Shown here piece after piece: positions 8,950-16,123 of a DNA stretch of 64,000 nt (positions are counted from its first letter, which is position 1; each line of letters begins with the position of its first letter). The stretch spans positions 53,272 to 117,271 of the forward strand of contig LNFR01000009.1 of NCBI GenBank assembly GCA_001567185.1, read 5' to 3'. The translations under genes were made by a program, and so were the position numbers. Under the pieces are notes generated by a model that was given only the letters and a program-made list of their open reading frames with translations, had not been told where the DNA came from and did no database searches. This DNA is from Bacteroidetes bacterium OLB12 (GTDB lineage: Bacteria; Bacteroidota; Bacteroidia; Cytophagales; Cyclobacteriaceae).

Positions 8950-11431
8950 ATGAAACGCTTTCTTCTCCTGCTTGTATTGCTTCCGGCCATTGCCTACTCC
9001 CAACATCAATCCAAAATAGCACGCATCGATTCGGTACTCACCTACCTGCATCAATACCACCTCTTCAACGGCACGGTATTGATTGGTGAAAAAGGAAAAG
9101 TGCTTTATAAAAAAAGCATTTGGTATCGCCCATCCGCAAACCCAACAACCGCTTACAACCGCTTCGGCTTTTAACCTGGCATCGGTAAGCAAACAGTTTT
9201 ATACCATGATGGCTATGATGTTGAAAGAGCAAGGCAAACTGCAATACGATGATGCGGTGCAAAAATATCTGCCTGCCTTTCCCTACAGCAACATCACCAT
9301 TCGCCAGCTCATGAACCAGACTTCCGGCTTGCCCGAATACTTTGATATTGCGCAGGGTGATATGAATCCGCTTGATACGCTCACCAATGCTTCGTTGCTT
9401 GCGTTGCTGGCACATAAAAAGCCACCGCTGGTATTTGAACCGGGCACAAAATGGGAATACTGCAACACCAACTACACCACATTGGCCTCGATCATCGAAA
9501 AAGTTTCCGGTATGTCTTGTGAACAATTTTTTGCCAGGCATATTGCTGCCCCTCTTAAGCTAAACAACACCTACGTTTATCACCTTAAACTAAAATCATA
9601 TCCACCTTCGCGTGTGTTTGGATTCTCTTATGATGGCAGCCACTATGAACTGAATGACCTGCTGCGGTTTGATGGCATTGTGGGCGATGGCAATGTGTAT
9701 TCGTCTGTTGAGGATTTGTACAAATGGGATCAAGCCCTGTACACCGAAAAGTTGGTGAAGAAGAGCACGTTTACCGAAGCCATTACTGCCGGAAAACTTA
9801 ACAATGGAGAAAACACCGAGTATGGTTTTGGTTGGTTTATCCGCGTGCCCGGAAAAGTAGTTGCACACACAGGAAGTTGGGTGGGTTTTCTTACGGAGAT
9901 AACGCGGTACATCGATCGGAATCAAACCATTATTGTATTAGAAAACTCCGCAAACGGTTATGCACGTACATTGATAAAAAATATTTGGGACGGAAAACCG
10001 GTAACCTTACCCAAAACCCATGTAATCACGAACGTAAAAATTATTGACGGTACCGGGTTGCCTGCGGTGGCCGGAAGTGTGCGGGTACTAAACAACCGCG
10101 TCTGGCATGTGGGTAAGCTTACTGCTTTTAATGGTGAAAGTACTACCGATGGAAAAGGCAAGGTATTGGCTCCGGGTTTTATCGATAATCATAGTCACCA
10201 CGATGGCGGTCTTGAAAAAAACCCTTCGGCCCTCGCAGTAACGAGCCAGGGTATAACCACGATTGTAGTGGGTCAGGATGGTAGGTCGGATGCCATGGAC
10301 TCCATTCAACAGGCTATTAAAAAAACACCGGTAAGCGTAAACGTAGCTTCATTTACCGGGCATGCTTCGTTGCGCGAAAAGGTGATGGGCAAAAACCTGT
10401 TTCGCAAAGCTACACCTGCCGAGATTGACTCTATGAAAGTATTATTGAGCCATGAAATGGACAAAGGTTCTTTGGGCTTAAGCACCGGCCTTGAGTATGA
10501 AGAAGCATTTTACAGCTCGCGCGATGAGGTGGTGGCCCTGGCTAAAGTGGCGGGTGAAAAAGGGGGGCGTTATATCAGCCATATTCGCAGTGAGGATTTG
10601 AACCTGGAGGATGCCATTGATGAAATTCTGGCGATTGGGTACGAAGCCAAAATTCCTGTACAGATAACCCACATAAAAATTGCTATGCGCAGCAAGTGGG
10701 GCCACTCCGAAAAAATTTTACGGCAACTGGATCGGGCCCGTCAAAATGGTATAAACGTAACAGCCGATGTTTATCCATATACCATGTGGAGCTCTACCCC
10801 GCGGGTACTTTTTCCTAAAAAGGATTTTGAAAGCATTACCAGTGCCGAGTTTGCCGTGCGCGAGTTGTTTGATCCGGAGGCTTCCGTTATGGTGCGCTAT
10901 TCACCACAACCGGCCTGGCAGGGAAAAACGGTAAGTGAGATTGCCGCCATCAATAAAGAAACTACTGCGCAGGCATTGTTGCGCATCATCCGCGAAAGCG
11001 CACCCCCCGAACAAAGTGGTATTGTTGCCAAAAGCATGAGCGAAACCGATATCAGCAATTTTTTGAAGTGGCCTTATGCCAGTATTTGTTCCGATGGTTC
11101 CATGCGTGGACACCCGCGCGGGCACGGTTCGTTTACGCGCGTGTTGGGCAAGTATGTGCGCGAACAAAAGTTGATGCCATTGGAAACCGCCATTCAGAAA
11201 ATGACCAGTCTGGCAGCAGAAAACGTAGGCATTAAAAACCGCGGGTTGATTGCCCCGGGCTATTTTGCAGATCTTGTGTTGTTTGATCCCGAAACGGTTA
11301 TTGATAATGCTACCATCGAAAACTCAACGGCTTTGTCTTCTGGTGTGGAAGCCGTGTGGGTAAACGGTACGTTGGTGTACGCAAATCAAAAACCAATCGC
11401 GAATTATCCGGGCGTGCAGGTGAAGCGATAG
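8950..11431 (+). CDS. Exported beta-lactamase-fold hydrolase fused to N-acyl-D-amino-acid deacylase (frameshifted in this sequence)
   Basis: After repair the protein is about 826 residues. It has a signal peptide (MKRFLLLLVLLPAIAYSQ), then a class C beta-lactamase/DD-peptidase-like domain with SVSK as the SxxK serine motif, YCN as YxN and HTG in place of KTG, then an amidohydrolase domain of the D-aminoacylase family. The latter shows IDNHSHHDGG, QITHIKIAM, CSDGSMRGHPRGHG and the C-terminal GYFADLVLFDPETV. The reading frame breaks at the A7 run 9109-9115: with six A the frames join as YKKAFGIAHP. The two domains suggest sequential attack on D-amino-acid-containing peptides or N-acyl-D-amino acids in the periplasm, which is an inference. 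Confidence 0.85.
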
Positions 11432-11442
11432 GTGTTAATTGA

Positions 11443-11652
11443 CTACTTGGCTGTAACCTGAAAGGCGCGCTCGCCATTTTTTTCTACTTCACGCAAAGTT
11501 CTGAGTTGTTTCATTTCTTCCAACATAGATAGCAGGGCACTATCGTCAGTTACTTTAAGGTGTTCTTTTAATTCTGAAAGAGATTTGATTTCGTTGGGTG
11601 CCTTGCGGAAATCGGTAATGAAGTTAAGGATGTCTATTTTCCTGATGGACAT
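11443..11652 (-). CDS. Small winged-helix-like protein, function unknown
   Basis: 69 residues from ATG 11652 (MSIRKIDILNFITDF); an alternative in-frame ATG lies 14 codons upstream inside an AT-rich repeat and is less likely. The pattern of three short helices followed by a strand-turn-strand (LREVEKNGERAFQVT) resembles a winged-helix DNA-binding fold, but no family is recognised. It lies between the fusion hydrolase (convergent) and the amidase gene on the same strand. Confidence 0.55.
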   Translation of the reverse strand: MSIRKIDILNFITDFRKAPNEIKSLSELKEHLKVTDDSALLSMLEEMKQLRTLREVEKNGERAFQVTAK

Positions 11653-11689
11653 GTTAAAACAGTTTTTGAGATTGTAAAGAAAATCTTGA

Positions 11690-11762
11690 TTCAAGATTCA
11701 AAATTCAAAAAATAAGATCCTTTGAGTCCCAATCTTAAATCTTAAATTTTGAATTTCAAATT
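11690..11762. repeat. AT-rich ATTCAAAATTC / GAATTTTGAAT word repeat
   Basis: Imperfect inverted words (GATTCAAGATTCAAAATTC on the left, AAATCTTAAATTTTGAATTTC on the right, shown in part) form a weak hairpin between two minus-strand genes. The same words recur at 62071-62098 and 63673-63752 in the ATP synthase operon. Confidence 0.5.
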
Positions 11763-13332
11763 ACTTACTAATAATAAACATTGGTGCTTTGCGGTGTTTG
11801 GTTGCCTGTTCATACCCGTAGGCAATCTCAATCAGAACAGGTTCCTGCCAGGCGGTACTAAAAAATGAAACACCTACCGGCAGCACATCGGCAAATCCCA
11901 TCGGCACCGTAATGGAAGGATACCCCGAGATTGCAGCCAGCGAAGAACTGCCTCCTAAAAAGTGATCGCCATCAATTAAATCGGTTTTCCAGGCTGGCGC
12001 TCCGGTAGGGGCCATTAATGCATGCAGGTTATTTTCTTTTAAAAGTTTATCAATGCCATTTTCACGGGTTGCTTTTTGCATGTTGGCCAAGGCATCTGCG
12101 TATTCTTTGTCTTGCAGCGAGCCTTTCTCATGCGCCAGTTTTAACAACTGTTGATCGAAGTATTTTAATTCAATGGAATCTTTCTCATTGAACTCCATCA
12201 ACTCCGCCAGGTTGTGTACAGGAGCTTTATCGCCCAGGCTGGCAAAGTATTTTGTCAATCCGTCTTTAAACTCATACAACAACACGGTAAACGAAGAACT
12301 ACCGGCACTACGGTCCAGGCTAAAATCGATTTCAATTACTTCAGCCCCCTGCGCGCGAATATCAGCAACCGCTTTTTTCATGAGTGTATCAACAGCGGCA
12401 TGGTAGCCACTTATATTTTTTAACAACCCAATGCGTTTGCCTTTTAATCCATCGGCCTTCAGGTGTGGCATGTAGTCGGTTTTAAAATGACCTTCCGAAG
12501 CAAGGGTTTTTGCATCAGCCGAATCAACCCCCGTTAATGCACCCAAGGCAATGGCTACATCGGTAACCGTGCGCCCCATAGGGCCGGCTGTATCCTGGGT
12601 AAAGGAAATGGGAATAATACCACTGCGACTCAACAATCCCACTGTTGGTTTTAGTCCTACCAACCCATTGGCATTAGAAGGACAAACAATAGATCCATTG
12701 GTTTCGGTGCCAATGGCAAAGGCACACAAGCTTGCCGAGGCGGCTACCCCCGATCCCGAACTGGACCCACAGGGATTACGATCCAGCACATACGGGTTTT
12801 TGGTTTGCCCTCCAACACCACTCCAACCGCTGCTGCTCATATCAGCCCGGAAGTTGGCCCACTCACTCAGGTTTGCTTTCGCGATGATGACGGCCCCGGC
12901 ATCGCGCAGTTTTTTTACGAGGTAACTATCTGTGGGCGGATAGGAATTGCGCAGTACCGTTGCCCCGGCCGTAGTGGGCATATCAACCGTGTTCAGGTTA
13001 TCTTTTACAATAACCGGAATGCCATGCAGCAATCCCCGGCTCTTCCCTGCGTGCAGCTCGGCATCCAGTTCCCGGGCAATTTCAATGGCTTTGGGGTTTA
13101 CATAGATAATGGAATTGAGCGCAGGCCCGTTCTTATCCAACGCTTCAATGCGCTGCAGGTAATCTCTTACTACTTGCTCTATTGTAAACGTGCTTTTCTG
13201 ATAACCCACCTGCAATTGGGGAATAGTTATTTCAACGAGATAGTCATGTGCCGGTACGGCTGTCTCTTGCCTAGATGGTTGGCACGCCAGCAACAGGATG
13301 CCCCACAATGAAAAAGCACGGAATGATTTCAT
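11761..13332 (-). CDS. Lipoprotein amidase (amidase signature family)
   Basis: 523 residues. The N-terminus MKSFRAFSLWGILLLACQPSR carries a lipobox (LLAC), so the enzyme is probably membrane-anchored on the periplasmic side. The amidase-signature catalytic set is present: the lysine in VIVKDN, the serine-rich loop CGSSSGSGVAASASL and the segment GTETNGSIVCPSNANGL with the nucleophile region. Full-length for the family. The substrate is unknown; relatives hydrolyse diverse amides and some peptide amides. It is divergent from the ATP-grasp operon across a 199-base gap. Confidence 0.88.
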   Translation of the reverse strand: MKSFRAFSLWGILLLACQPSRQETAVPAHDYLVEITIPQLQVGYQKSTFTIEQVVRDYLQRIEALDKNGPALNSIIYVNPKAIEIARELDAELHAGKSRGLLHGIPVIVKDNLNTVDMPTTAGATVLRNSYPPTDSYLVKKLRDAGAVIIAKANLSEWANFRADMSSSGWSGVGGQTKNPYVLDRNPCGSSSGSGVAASASLCAFAIGTETNGSIVCPSNANGLVGLKPTVGLLSRSGIIPISFTQDTAGPMGRTVTDVAIALGALTGVDSADAKTLASEGHFKTDYMPHLKADGLKGKRIGLLKNISGYHAAVDTLMKKAVADIRAQGAEVIEIDFSLDRSAGSSSFTVLLYEFKDGLTKYFASLGDKAPVHNLAELMEFNEKDSIELKYFDQQLLKLAHEKGSLQDKEYADALANMQKATRENGIDKLLKENNLHALMAPTGAPAWKTDLIDGDHFLGGSSSLAAISGYPSITVPMGFADVLPVGVSFFSTAWQEPVLIEIAYGYEQATKHRKAPMFIISK

Positions 13333-13531
13333 ATAGTACAGGAATGAAAGTTACAGTTTCAGGTTAATGTACCTGCAATACGCATATGATTCCTTATGCC
13401 TACTGCTCTTGAACCAACCCCACTTTAACAATAAATATTGACAAGTACTTTACTTTAATAATAATATTTATTGAAATTGCATAAGCTATGGCAAATAGTA
13501 CTTTATTGCATCCCCAGGGGCTGCTGAGTTT

Positions 13532-14623
13532 ATGACGTTACTCGACAACACAGCCGCCTTTAAAGTTTGGGTTTTTGCTCCTTATCTGGAGACGGATGAC
13601 CCTACCCTTAAATTTTACTATGACTATACCCAAAGCATTGAGGAATACACCCGTGTATTCGCAGAAATCAACTGCGAATGGGAATGGGTAAATGTAACGG
13701 TGCACAACATAGCCGAGTCCATAAAGCGGGTTAAAGATTATACCGAAAAGCAAAGTATTGTACTAAACCTGTGCGATGGCGATGAGATCAATAACGTACC
13801 CGGGGTATCCGTGATCCACGCCTTAGACGAAAGCGGAATAACCTATACAGGATCCGACTCTCACTTTTATAATGTAACCACTTCCAAAATCACCATGAAA
13901 GAAGCTTTTGACAAAGCCGGGGTTTCCATGCCGGGTTGGCAAAAGCTAAACGGACACATCGATCCTGATCTTTTTAAGAAAGTAGGTAAACCCATTATTG
14001 TGAAACCCGCAGTATCGGCTGGTAGCATGGGGATAAGTGTAAAGAATGTGGTTAATGGTAAGCGCGAACTAAAGAACGTTCTCAATAACCTACACGAAGG
14101 GTTTAAAGGTTGGGATATAAATACAGCGGGGTTGTTGGCCGAGCAGTTTATAATAGGCAGGGAGTTTACAACCTTGTTGGTGGGGTCGCATCACCAACCC
14201 GAACAGATTCAATTCTACCAGCCCATCGAACGCGTGTTTCATAAGGGACTGCCGGAAAAAGAACAGTTTCTTTCTTTCGAGCGGTTGTGGGAAGCCTATG
14301 ATGAAGAAACTCCACCGCCCGACAATGGCTTCTTGTATGAATACGCACCTGTAACCTGCCCCACGCTGGCACAGCAGCTAAAAGACCTGAGCATTGATGC
14401 CTTTAAGGCTGTAAAGGGTGTTGGCTATGCGAGGTTGGATTTCAGAATGGATAAGAAAACCGGTAAACTGTTTGTGCTGGAGATTAATGCTCAGTGTGGC
14501 TTAAGCGAAGACGAAAACTATACTTCTATAGGCGCCATTCTGCGCGTAAGCAACAAAACCTTCACCAACCTGATTGTAGAAGTGCTGGACGATGCGCTGC
14601 TGCGCAGTTCTGTCTCCAGCTAA
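13532..14623 (+). CDS. ATP-grasp ligase, D-Ala-D-Ala-ligase-like
   Basis: 363 residues. The ATP-grasp fold is indicated by IIVKPAVSAGSMGISV (nucleotide-binding lysine and glycine loop), LLAEQFIIGREFTTLLVG, and the metal-binding pair ARLDFRMDKK and FVLEINAQCGLS. The N-terminal segment LNLCDGDEINNVPG resembles that of D-Ala-D-Ala ligases, but the acceptor-site motif NTxPG of true Ddl is replaced by NAQCG, so the substrate is probably different. Such enzymes join a carboxylate to an amine through an acyl phosphate. The next gene, 54 bases downstream on the same strand, is a paralogue carrying an extra SET domain; the two likely form an operon. Confidence 0.85.
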   Translation: MTLLDNTAAFKVWVFAPYLETDDPTLKFYYDYTQSIEEYTRVFAEINCEWEWVNVTVHNIAESIKRVKDYTEKQSIVLNLCDGDEINNVPGVSVIHALDESGITYTGSDSHFYNVTTSKITMKEAFDKAGVSMPGWQKLNGHIDPDLFKKVGKPIIVKPAVSAGSMGISVKNVVNGKRELKNVLNNLHEGFKGWDINTAGLLAEQFIIGREFTTLLVGSHHQPEQIQFYQPIERVFHKGLPEKEQFLSFERLWEAYDEETPPPDNGFLYEYAPVTCPTLAQQLKDLSIDAFKAVKGVGYARLDFRMDKKTGKLFVLEINAQCGLSEDENYTSIGAILRVSNKTFTNLIVEVLDDALLRSSVSS

Positions 14624-14677
14624 CCAATCCTCATAGTAATAATTGGCTAACCCACGGCTTATATCCACCTAAGGAAC

Positions 14678-16123
14678 ATGAAAGTTTGCGTTTTACAACC
14701 TGACTATAGCACTACCGAGGTGGACTATAAAAACTATGATCCATCCCGCAACCTTGCTGCGCTTTTACCCAACGATCAGGTAGATCATGTATTTCTGAAC
14801 AAACTAACCACATACAAGCAACTTAAAGAGTTGCGCAAGCAGAAGTATGATATTTATGTAAACCTATGCGAAGGCTATTTGGATTGGTCGGTGCCTTCTA
14901 TTGATGTGATCAATTCATTGGATGCACTCAATCTGCCCTACACAGGACCCAATGCAGTTTTGTACGATCCGCCTAAATCATTGATGAAATATGTAGCGTA
15001 TTGTGCCGGTGTTTTGTCTCCGCTTTACGCAGAAGTTACAGGCAGTCACAACCTGGAAGCTAAAGTTAGCCACTTAAGATTTCCGTTGTTTGTAAAGCCG
15101 GCCAAAGCGGGCGATAGCCTGGGCGTGGATGAGGAATCGCTGGCGCATGATCTTCCACACTTAACACATAAAGTAGATAGCCTGCTGGCCGAAGGGTATG
15201 ACGAAATACTGATTGAAGAATACATAGCCGGGCAGGAATTTACGGTGTTGGTTGCAGCTAATATTCAACCAAAATATGGAGCCGTTGCTTTTAAACCGGT
15301 TGAATATAAATTTCCGAAAGGATATGCCTTTAAAACCTATGCACTCAAAACATCTGAGTTGCATAACAATGTGAACAAACCGTGCGCTGATGCAGCACTC
15401 GAAGCACGACTCAGGTTAGCGGCCGAAAAAATCTTTACCGGTTTTTCAGGTGTGGGGTATGCACGTCTGGATTTTCGGGTAAATGAAAAACAAGAAATTT
15501 ATTTCCTCGAAATCAATTTTACCTGTTCTGTTTTTTATCAGGATGGATACGAAGGGTCTGCCGATTACATTCTGCAATTCGATCCTATCGGAAAATCCGG
15601 ATTTTTAAAACACATCATTGAAGAAGGCAGGGCAAGGCACGCAGCGCGTCAGAAAAAGTATCGGGTAAAGGGTAATTCAATAAATGGCTATGGCATTGTA
15701 GCCCAAAGGCCCATTCGCAAAGGCGAAGTAGTTTTTAAGTTTGAAGAAGCTGCGCAGCGCCTTGTTACCAAACGGTATGTAGAACAAAACTGGACACCTG
15801 AACAACTCGAAGAGTTTCGCCACTATGCATACCCCATTTCGGACGAAGTGTACATCTTGTGGGATCATAAACCTGAAAACTGGGCTCCTCAAAATCATTG
15901 TTGTGTGCCCAATACGATTTACAGCGGGCTTAACTTAATTGCATTGCGCGATATTGAGGCCGAGGAGGAACTTACGCTGGATTATGCTGATCTGCTGGAT
16001 GATACCATTCAACCTTTTGTGTGTACTTGTGGGCATCCTAATTGCCGCAAAATAATTTCTGGCCGGGCTAATAACTCAATTACCCAGCGCGAGAAGATTA
16101 GTGTAACGCCTCCTCAGGGTTAA
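14678..16123 (+). CDS. ATP-grasp ligase fused to a SET/post-SET methyltransferase domain
   Basis: 481 residues. Residues 1 to about 310 form a second D-Ala-D-Ala-ligase-like ATP-grasp unit, paralogous to the preceding gene: NLCEGYLDWSVP, LFVKPAKAGDSLGV, ILIEEYIAGQEFTVLV, ARLDFRVNEKQ and FLEINFTCSVF. Residues of about 325-465 form a SET domain with the expected order of motifs: GYGIVAQRPIRKGEVVF, then NHCCVPN (usual NHSCxPN), EEELTLDYAD, and a post-SET zinc cluster CTCGHPNCR. SET domains methylate lysine side chains with S-adenosylmethionine. Ligation and methylation on one chain suggests a peptide-like product or a modified protein target; this is inference. No homologue of a dedicated precursor peptide is visible next to it. 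Confidence 0.87.
   Translation: MKVCVLQPDYSTTEVDYKNYDPSRNLAALLPNDQVDHVFLNKLTTYKQLKELRKQKYDIYVNLCEGYLDWSVPSIDVINSLDALNLPYTGPNAVLYDPPKSLMKYVAYCAGVLSPLYAEVTGSHNLEAKVSHLRFPLFVKPAKAGDSLGVDEESLAHDLPHLTHKVDSLLAEGYDEILIEEYIAGQEFTVLVAANIQPKYGAVAFKPVEYKFPKGYAFKTYALKTSELHNNVNKPCADAALEARLRLAAEKIFTGFSGVGYARLDFRVNEKQEIYFLEINFTCSVFYQDGYEGSADYILQFDPIGKSGFLKHIIEEGRARHAARQKKYRVKGNSINGYGIVAQRPIRKGEVVFKFEEAAQRLVTKRYVEQNWTPEQLEEFRHYAYPISDEVYILWDHKPENWAPQNHCCVPNTIYSGLNLIALRDIEAEEELTLDYADLLDDTIQPFVCTCGHPNCRKIISGRANNSITQREKISVTPPQG

Follow-up and report, generated by a model that had tools for sequence, protein, structure and literature searches.

SET domains mostly methylate lysine in proteins, and D-alanine–D-alanine ligases (Ddl) carry the acceptor motif NTxPG; relatives of both come together in a gene pair, here called A and B, in a 64,000-nucleotide stretch of DNA (the window) from Bacteroidetes bacterium OLB12 (assembly GCA_001567185.1, contig LNFR01000009.1, positions 53,272 to 117,271 of the forward strand). 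Bacterial SET domains have been treated mainly as chromatin-type enzymes, at least in the available part of one account, which notes SET genes of Chlorobium as such and in that part brings in no ATP-grasp enzyme (PMC3980110). Small-molecule cases are represented, in the available portions of two reports, by BurB and its Streptomyces counterpart (PMC12542666, PMC7496086). BurB is a free-standing SET enzyme that S-methylates free methionine, held through main-chain contacts (PMC12542666), and these portions describe no ATP-grasp pair alongside it (PMC12542666, PMC7496086). The eukaryotic protein TTLL12 resembles B in uniting a SET-type and an ATP-grasp-type domain in one chain, but with the reverse domain order and a TTL-type rather than a Ddl-type ligase. 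It is reported to be inactive in vitro and to lack critical residues (PMC3520985), while the motifs of B are intact. Among the Pfam matches listed for A and B up to E=1, a list whose filters drop most of those above 0.1, there is no TTL-type domain, the Ddl type appearing instead. ATP-grasp ligases also make small peptides in pathways such as that of BacD (bacilysin), which A matches weakly (E 0.008), and no ATP-grasp dipeptide ligase pathway is known to include SET methyltransferases.

The original prediction, made from the window's letters without database searches, described A and B as tandem Ddl-like ATP-grasp enzymes, the second with a C-terminal SET domain, and could assign them to no known pathway. 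None was found in the open literature either, nor any open paper joining bacterial SET domains with ATP-grasp ligases, the subscription literature being largely uncovered, so that an earlier mention is possible. The features concerned are the following:

13532..14623, forward strand: gene A, stand-alone Ddl-like ATP-grasp ligase of 363 aa (Pfam PF07478, 51.5 bits)
14678..16123, forward strand: gene B, Ddl-like ATP-grasp ligase with C-terminal SET and post-SET, 481 aa (Pfam)
15632..16072, forward strand: SET and post-SET region of B, residues about 319-465 (PF00856 44.2 bits, residues 337-436)
14495..14497, forward strand: codon of the acceptor-loop Cys322 of A (NAQCG), invariant in 24/24 aligned A proteins
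15524..15526, forward strand: codon of the acceptor-loop Cys283 of B (NFTCS), invariant in 27/27 B proteins and in 14/14 diverse ones

Both open reading frames (ORFs) were confirmed at these coordinates, 54 bp apart; gene calls here and below are longest ORFs, with start codons and small genes uncertain. Profile searches bear out the predicted domains, since A and B both exceed the Pfam cut-off for Dala_Dala_lig_C (51.5 bits for A against a cut-off of 24; 64.6 bits for B, at residues 126-280) and are about 29% identical to each other over part of their length, while the SET domain of B stands well above its own cut-off of 22.4 bits. Residues K158, E204, R301, D303, E317 and N319 of A are invariant in 24 aligned homologues and, by the roles of their counterparts in Ddl, make up the Arg/Asp/Glu/Asn set of a Ddl-type ATP-grasp fold. 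In the SET region of B, the NHxC, DY and CxCx4C motifs (N406, H407, C409, Y436, C449, C451 and C456) are invariant in both B alignments, one of 27 homologues and one of 14 more diverse ones; the GYG motif, also listed as kept in the original prediction, is invariant in the 27 only; among the 14, near-invariance is confined to its Y338 and G339. Methylation by B would depend on S-adenosylmethionine (SAM).

Ddl models head the matches of A and B, both in Pfam and in NCBIfam (best 25 of 47 and best 25 of 38 rows), and the solved structures nearest to them are those of Ddl and Van ligases; the Foldseek and VIA lists for a model of B consist of Ddl chains and barely probe its SET part. Yet both differ from the Ddl and Van ligases (PF07478) in having NAQCG (A) and NFTCS (B) at the place of NTxPG, substitutions whose cysteine, already pointed out in the original prediction, is invariant in every A and B homologue aligned. 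Each scores 71.0 bits against the 245.65-bit cut-off of the Ddl family model TIGR01205, far below it, and B alone bears a fused SET domain. A and B form one clade (support 0.957) separate from most other Ddl-like ligases in the tree, in which L064 was entered as a wrong frame of 42 aa, placed within the B branch, and L057, L062 and L063 have no clean acceptor loop. Because a genome of the same genus (G617) encodes a separate, intact Ddl in addition to A and B, these two are not the cell's Ddl or cell-wall ligase. In the window's genome itself the best Ddl match is in two pieces in different frames of a single contig (L185 1438-2530, G000:C108), each below the family cut-off, reflecting either assembly error or decay.

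The gene neighbourhood, which the original prediction had proposed to survey across Bacteroidota, adds a third component. A scan of genome contigs with B gave 35 distinct loci, 34 under Bacteroidota-type titles and one titled Williamsia (L016), with B proteins 61-97% identical to that of the window. In 32 of the 35, A precedes B on the same strand, with no called ORF between them in 30 and one in L027 and L030, and the pairing is therefore far beyond chance; L028 has A cut by a contig end, and the exceptions are L012, which starts inside B at a contig edge, L033, with A and a small SET gene together on another contig, and L034, without A. A small free-standing SET gene is found upstream of A in 16 of the 35 loci, adjoining it in 13 and one or two genes off in L024, L032 and L038, and gene ends often touch or overlap (for example L013, L014, L016). 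A PF13748 protein, an ABC transmembrane region with presumably six transmembrane helices and with no nucleotide-binding domain matched in the proteins scanned, stands beside B in seven loci (downstream on the same strand in six, on the opposite strand in L034), the order being small SET, A, B, PF13748 protein in G115 and A, B, PF13748 protein, small SET in G033. The unit thus has at least three genes, small SET, A and B, sometimes with an ABC-type membrane protein. The two-gene operon of the original prediction holds as a pair and is incomplete as a unit, for the small SET belongs to it too and, in the window's genome, lies with an open frame on another contig (G000:C2), invisible in the window; a third SET protein of that genome (G000:C63) is of another type.

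The small SET occurs in 32 of the 35 B-bearing genomes (counting that of L015, where it is only partly found and B is 97% identical) and in none of 14 same-family controls without B; the misses are L012, whose B contig measures 5.8 kb, L028, with a contig edge inside A, and L034. Distribution was sampled within the window's phylum (GTDB Bacteroidota): among 395 genomes, B (E<=1e-100) is found in 17, the small SET (E<=1e-28) in 16 and both in 15, and A (E<=1e-40) in six, the same six that have a close B, all of which have the small SET. A single genus accounts for nine of the 15 genomes with both, so that these counts overstate the number of independent events. With B in 3/196 genomes of the window's family and 3/145 of the class of G211, its distribution is patchy and accessory. 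Searches of phage and plasmid collections with B by tblastn gave three and two records, covering 22-51% of the query at the best places and including no full-length copy, the annotated ones being Ddl or Van ligases; of 106 pattern-matching stretches found in viral contigs with the B alignment, none was confirmed. Anti-phage defence was considered and rejected, as none of the four proteins compared with the PADLOC models (A, B, a small SET and a PF13748 protein) gave a match at E 0.01 or better.

The closest solved relative of the small SET, by sequence and by fold, is BurB (PDB 9l4t, 9l4v). Two small SETs score 33.8 and 40.6 bits against PF00856 (cut-off 22.4) and share with BurB a Y-x-S-T-E at the conserved tyrosine. 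BurB contacts methionine through its main chain, and therefore residues cannot decide whether the small SET S-methylates methionine. When the window sequence alone is used, the SET domain of B is also closer to BurB (5.4e-10) than to histone enzymes (3.7e-6).

A different arrangement is seen in genus g59, where A was not found and which we label green sulfur bacteria on the strength of the FMO protein family, present in 3/3 genomes tested. All six loci read there have, in one orientation, the order small SET, B, full ABC exporter, second SET, the last a protein of 118-120 aa encoded directly 3' of the exporter gene (L077 12756-13112 and five other loci). The six exporters are 85-95% identical to that of L077, the reference and itself counted; the L077 exporter comprises ABC_membrane and ABC_tran, and its best 25 of 188 matches include MsbA-related, TAP and peptide-export models, all below cut-off. 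By this layout, the small SET and B form the core, to which Bacteroidia add A, with a membrane exporter as a recurrent partner. Another SET clade is represented in L122 (9323-10539) and L124 (9220-10463) by two tandem genes (~215 and ~205 aa), whose surroundings look alike in the two genomes.

Taken as a whole, these observations favour, with a probability of roughly 0.55, a role for A and B in a small biosynthetic and export system for a methylated, ligated small metabolite, outside cell-wall synthesis. The small SET would use SAM to methylate a free building block; A and B would each turn a carboxylate into an acyl phosphate and join it to an amine, so that a di- or tripeptide-like product results; the SET domain of B would then methylate the product or an intermediate still held on the enzyme; and the ABC-type membrane protein would export it. 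What the sequences show is the domain content, the intact catalytic motifs, the invariant acceptor-loop cysteines, the linkage and co-occurrence of the genes, the transporter linkage in some loci and the similarity of the small SET to BurB; a small-molecule rather than a protein substrate, the order of steps and the export are inferred. A ligase pair with a built-in methyltransferase that probably makes a peptide-like compound is thus retained from the original prediction, while lysine as the methylated residue is not, given that the small SET is closest to BurB; lysine methylation is possible but unsupported.

Several observations weigh against such a system. Small SETs and BurB are only 26-28% identical, and the Asn of the NHSC kept in small SETs is missing from BurB, which has LHSC. 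With a family profile, the SET domain of B matches BurB (9.5e-12) and KMT2A (1.8e-11) about equally, and it falls in a different part of the SET tree from the small SETs. No gene of the PF13748 cluster is present in the window or in 28 of the 35 loci, some of them cut by contig ends. Only model positions 85-164 of the small SET are matched in the genome of L015, the closest relative (97%); the genome of L034 has B and neither A nor the small SET; G211, G340 and G440 have B-like genes and lack A, no separate small SET being found in G211 and G340 by a search that did not include G440; and G259 has the small SET without B. The enzyme activities, the substrate and the product are, moreover, predictions.

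Protein modification, in which B, together with A, would tag a protein by ligating an amino acid or peptide to it and the SET domain of B would methylate lysine, is the rival that fares best, though we consider it unlikely. It draws on the general preference of SET domains for protein lysine, on the near-equal score of the SET domain of B with KMT2A under the family profile, and on TTLL12 as an existing, if only formally parallel, fusion of SET and ATP-grasp domains. The nearness of the small SET to BurB speaks against it, as does the Ddl-like character of the ligase in B, since to our knowledge such ligases all handle free amino acids; nor does any obvious target protein recur beside A and B among called ORFs of at least 90 aa, shorter ones being unclustered.

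Next comes amine or polyamine conjugation, a rather improbable reading in which the SET domains would N-methylate an aliphatic amine, a mimic of the lysine side chain, to which A and B would couple amino acids. It is suggested by a 617-aa protein of G203 that combines SET, S-adenosylmethionine decarboxylase and spermidine synthase, is encoded beside another SET protein (L117 8989-12318, G203:C65), and has a SET domain branching next to those of B in the SET tree (supports not printed). The full fusion is, however, found in only 1/92 genomes of that family, 49 other matches being to the spermidine-synthase part only, and no polyamine gene was seen to recur beside A and B, where most neighbour clusters are without annotation. 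A G211 locus (L074 5041-10792, G211:C3) may also be read in its favour, the B homologue lying upstream, on the same strand, of genes for an N-formylglutamate amidohydrolase (FGase), a MATCAP-family peptidase and a glutathione-synthetase-like ATP-grasp protein. The neighbour of the G203 fusion is a 483-aa protein with an N-terminal SET domain, whose C-terminal half looks ATP-grasp-like by eye only, with no match in Pfam or NCBIfam.

A speculative and more specific version of the biosynthetic reading, itself improbable, is a sulfonium-peptide pathway, with SET enzymes S-methylating methionine both free and within a ligated peptide held by B. The methylated methionine would then bear a leaving group, and dimethyl sulfide could be lost as the residue closes to a lactam or lactone. 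S-methylation followed by cyclisation is a known chemical route to gamma-lactams, of which this would be an enzymatic form; if true, it would make SET domains general small-molecule methyltransferases in bacteria and tie ATP-grasp chemistry to the organic sulfur cycle.

It is very improbable that A and B make an altered D-Ala-D-X terminus for the cell wall in the manner of Van ligases: the nearest solved structures and a nearby protein with beta-lactamase and amidohydrolase parts, present in 9/36 stretches, would fit, but the low family score, lost acceptor motif and separate Ddl described above do not, it is not evident what a fused methyltransferase would do there, and no VanH- or VanX-type partners were noticed, no search having been aimed at them. 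Least credible is the tailoring of a ribosomal precursor peptide (RiPP; ribosomally synthesised and post-translationally modified peptide) by A and B acting like graspetide ligases, with SET methylating the peptide, for although graspetide systems typically combine ATP-grasp enzymes with exporters and peptide-export models figure among those best 25 of 188 for the green-sulfur ABC protein, A and B match Ddl models best, A directly follows the small SET in 13 loci, and the one candidate ORF upstream of A is not conserved as coding. That 15-codon ORF, abutting A, was rejected as a peptide gene on account of a 1-nt gap in L005 and L011 (window and seven relatives aligned; other positions were not systematically searched).

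The region upstream of A has its own features:

13425..13510, forward strand: conserved promoter or leader, possibly with an operator, 72/85 positions invariant
13429..13473, no strand assigned: 11-bp perfect inverted repeat, arms 13429-13439 and 13463-13473, right arm altered in L005
13444-13452 and 13497-13505: two copies of the direct repeat AGTACTTTA, within the A leader

Eight stretches were aligned, that of the window and those of seven relatives taken from loci in which A is not preceded by the small SET; 72 of the 85 positions from 13425 to 13509 are invariant, against 5 of the 95 immediately before. A promoter-like TTGACA-16-AATAAT is found at 13438-13465 (TTGAAT in L005 and L011), in a scan whose total equals the shuffled mean. 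From its conservation and repeats the leader is likely a controlled promoter. Strings of the AGTACTTTA type are absent from 15 stretches upstream of unlinked small SET genes, one of them shortened by a contig end. Farther upstream in the window (9083-13332) are the beta-lactamase and amidohydrolase protein and a divergent amidase; the cluster of the former recurs in the nine stretches mentioned and that of the amidase in 11/36, mostly in close relatives.

The system is compact, with three or four genes, so that its product could be sought by expression and mass spectrometry. If SET enzymes are conserved together with peptide ligases and an exporter both in Bacteroidia and among green sulfur bacteria, this would point to a wider small-molecule role for the SET domains of bacteria.
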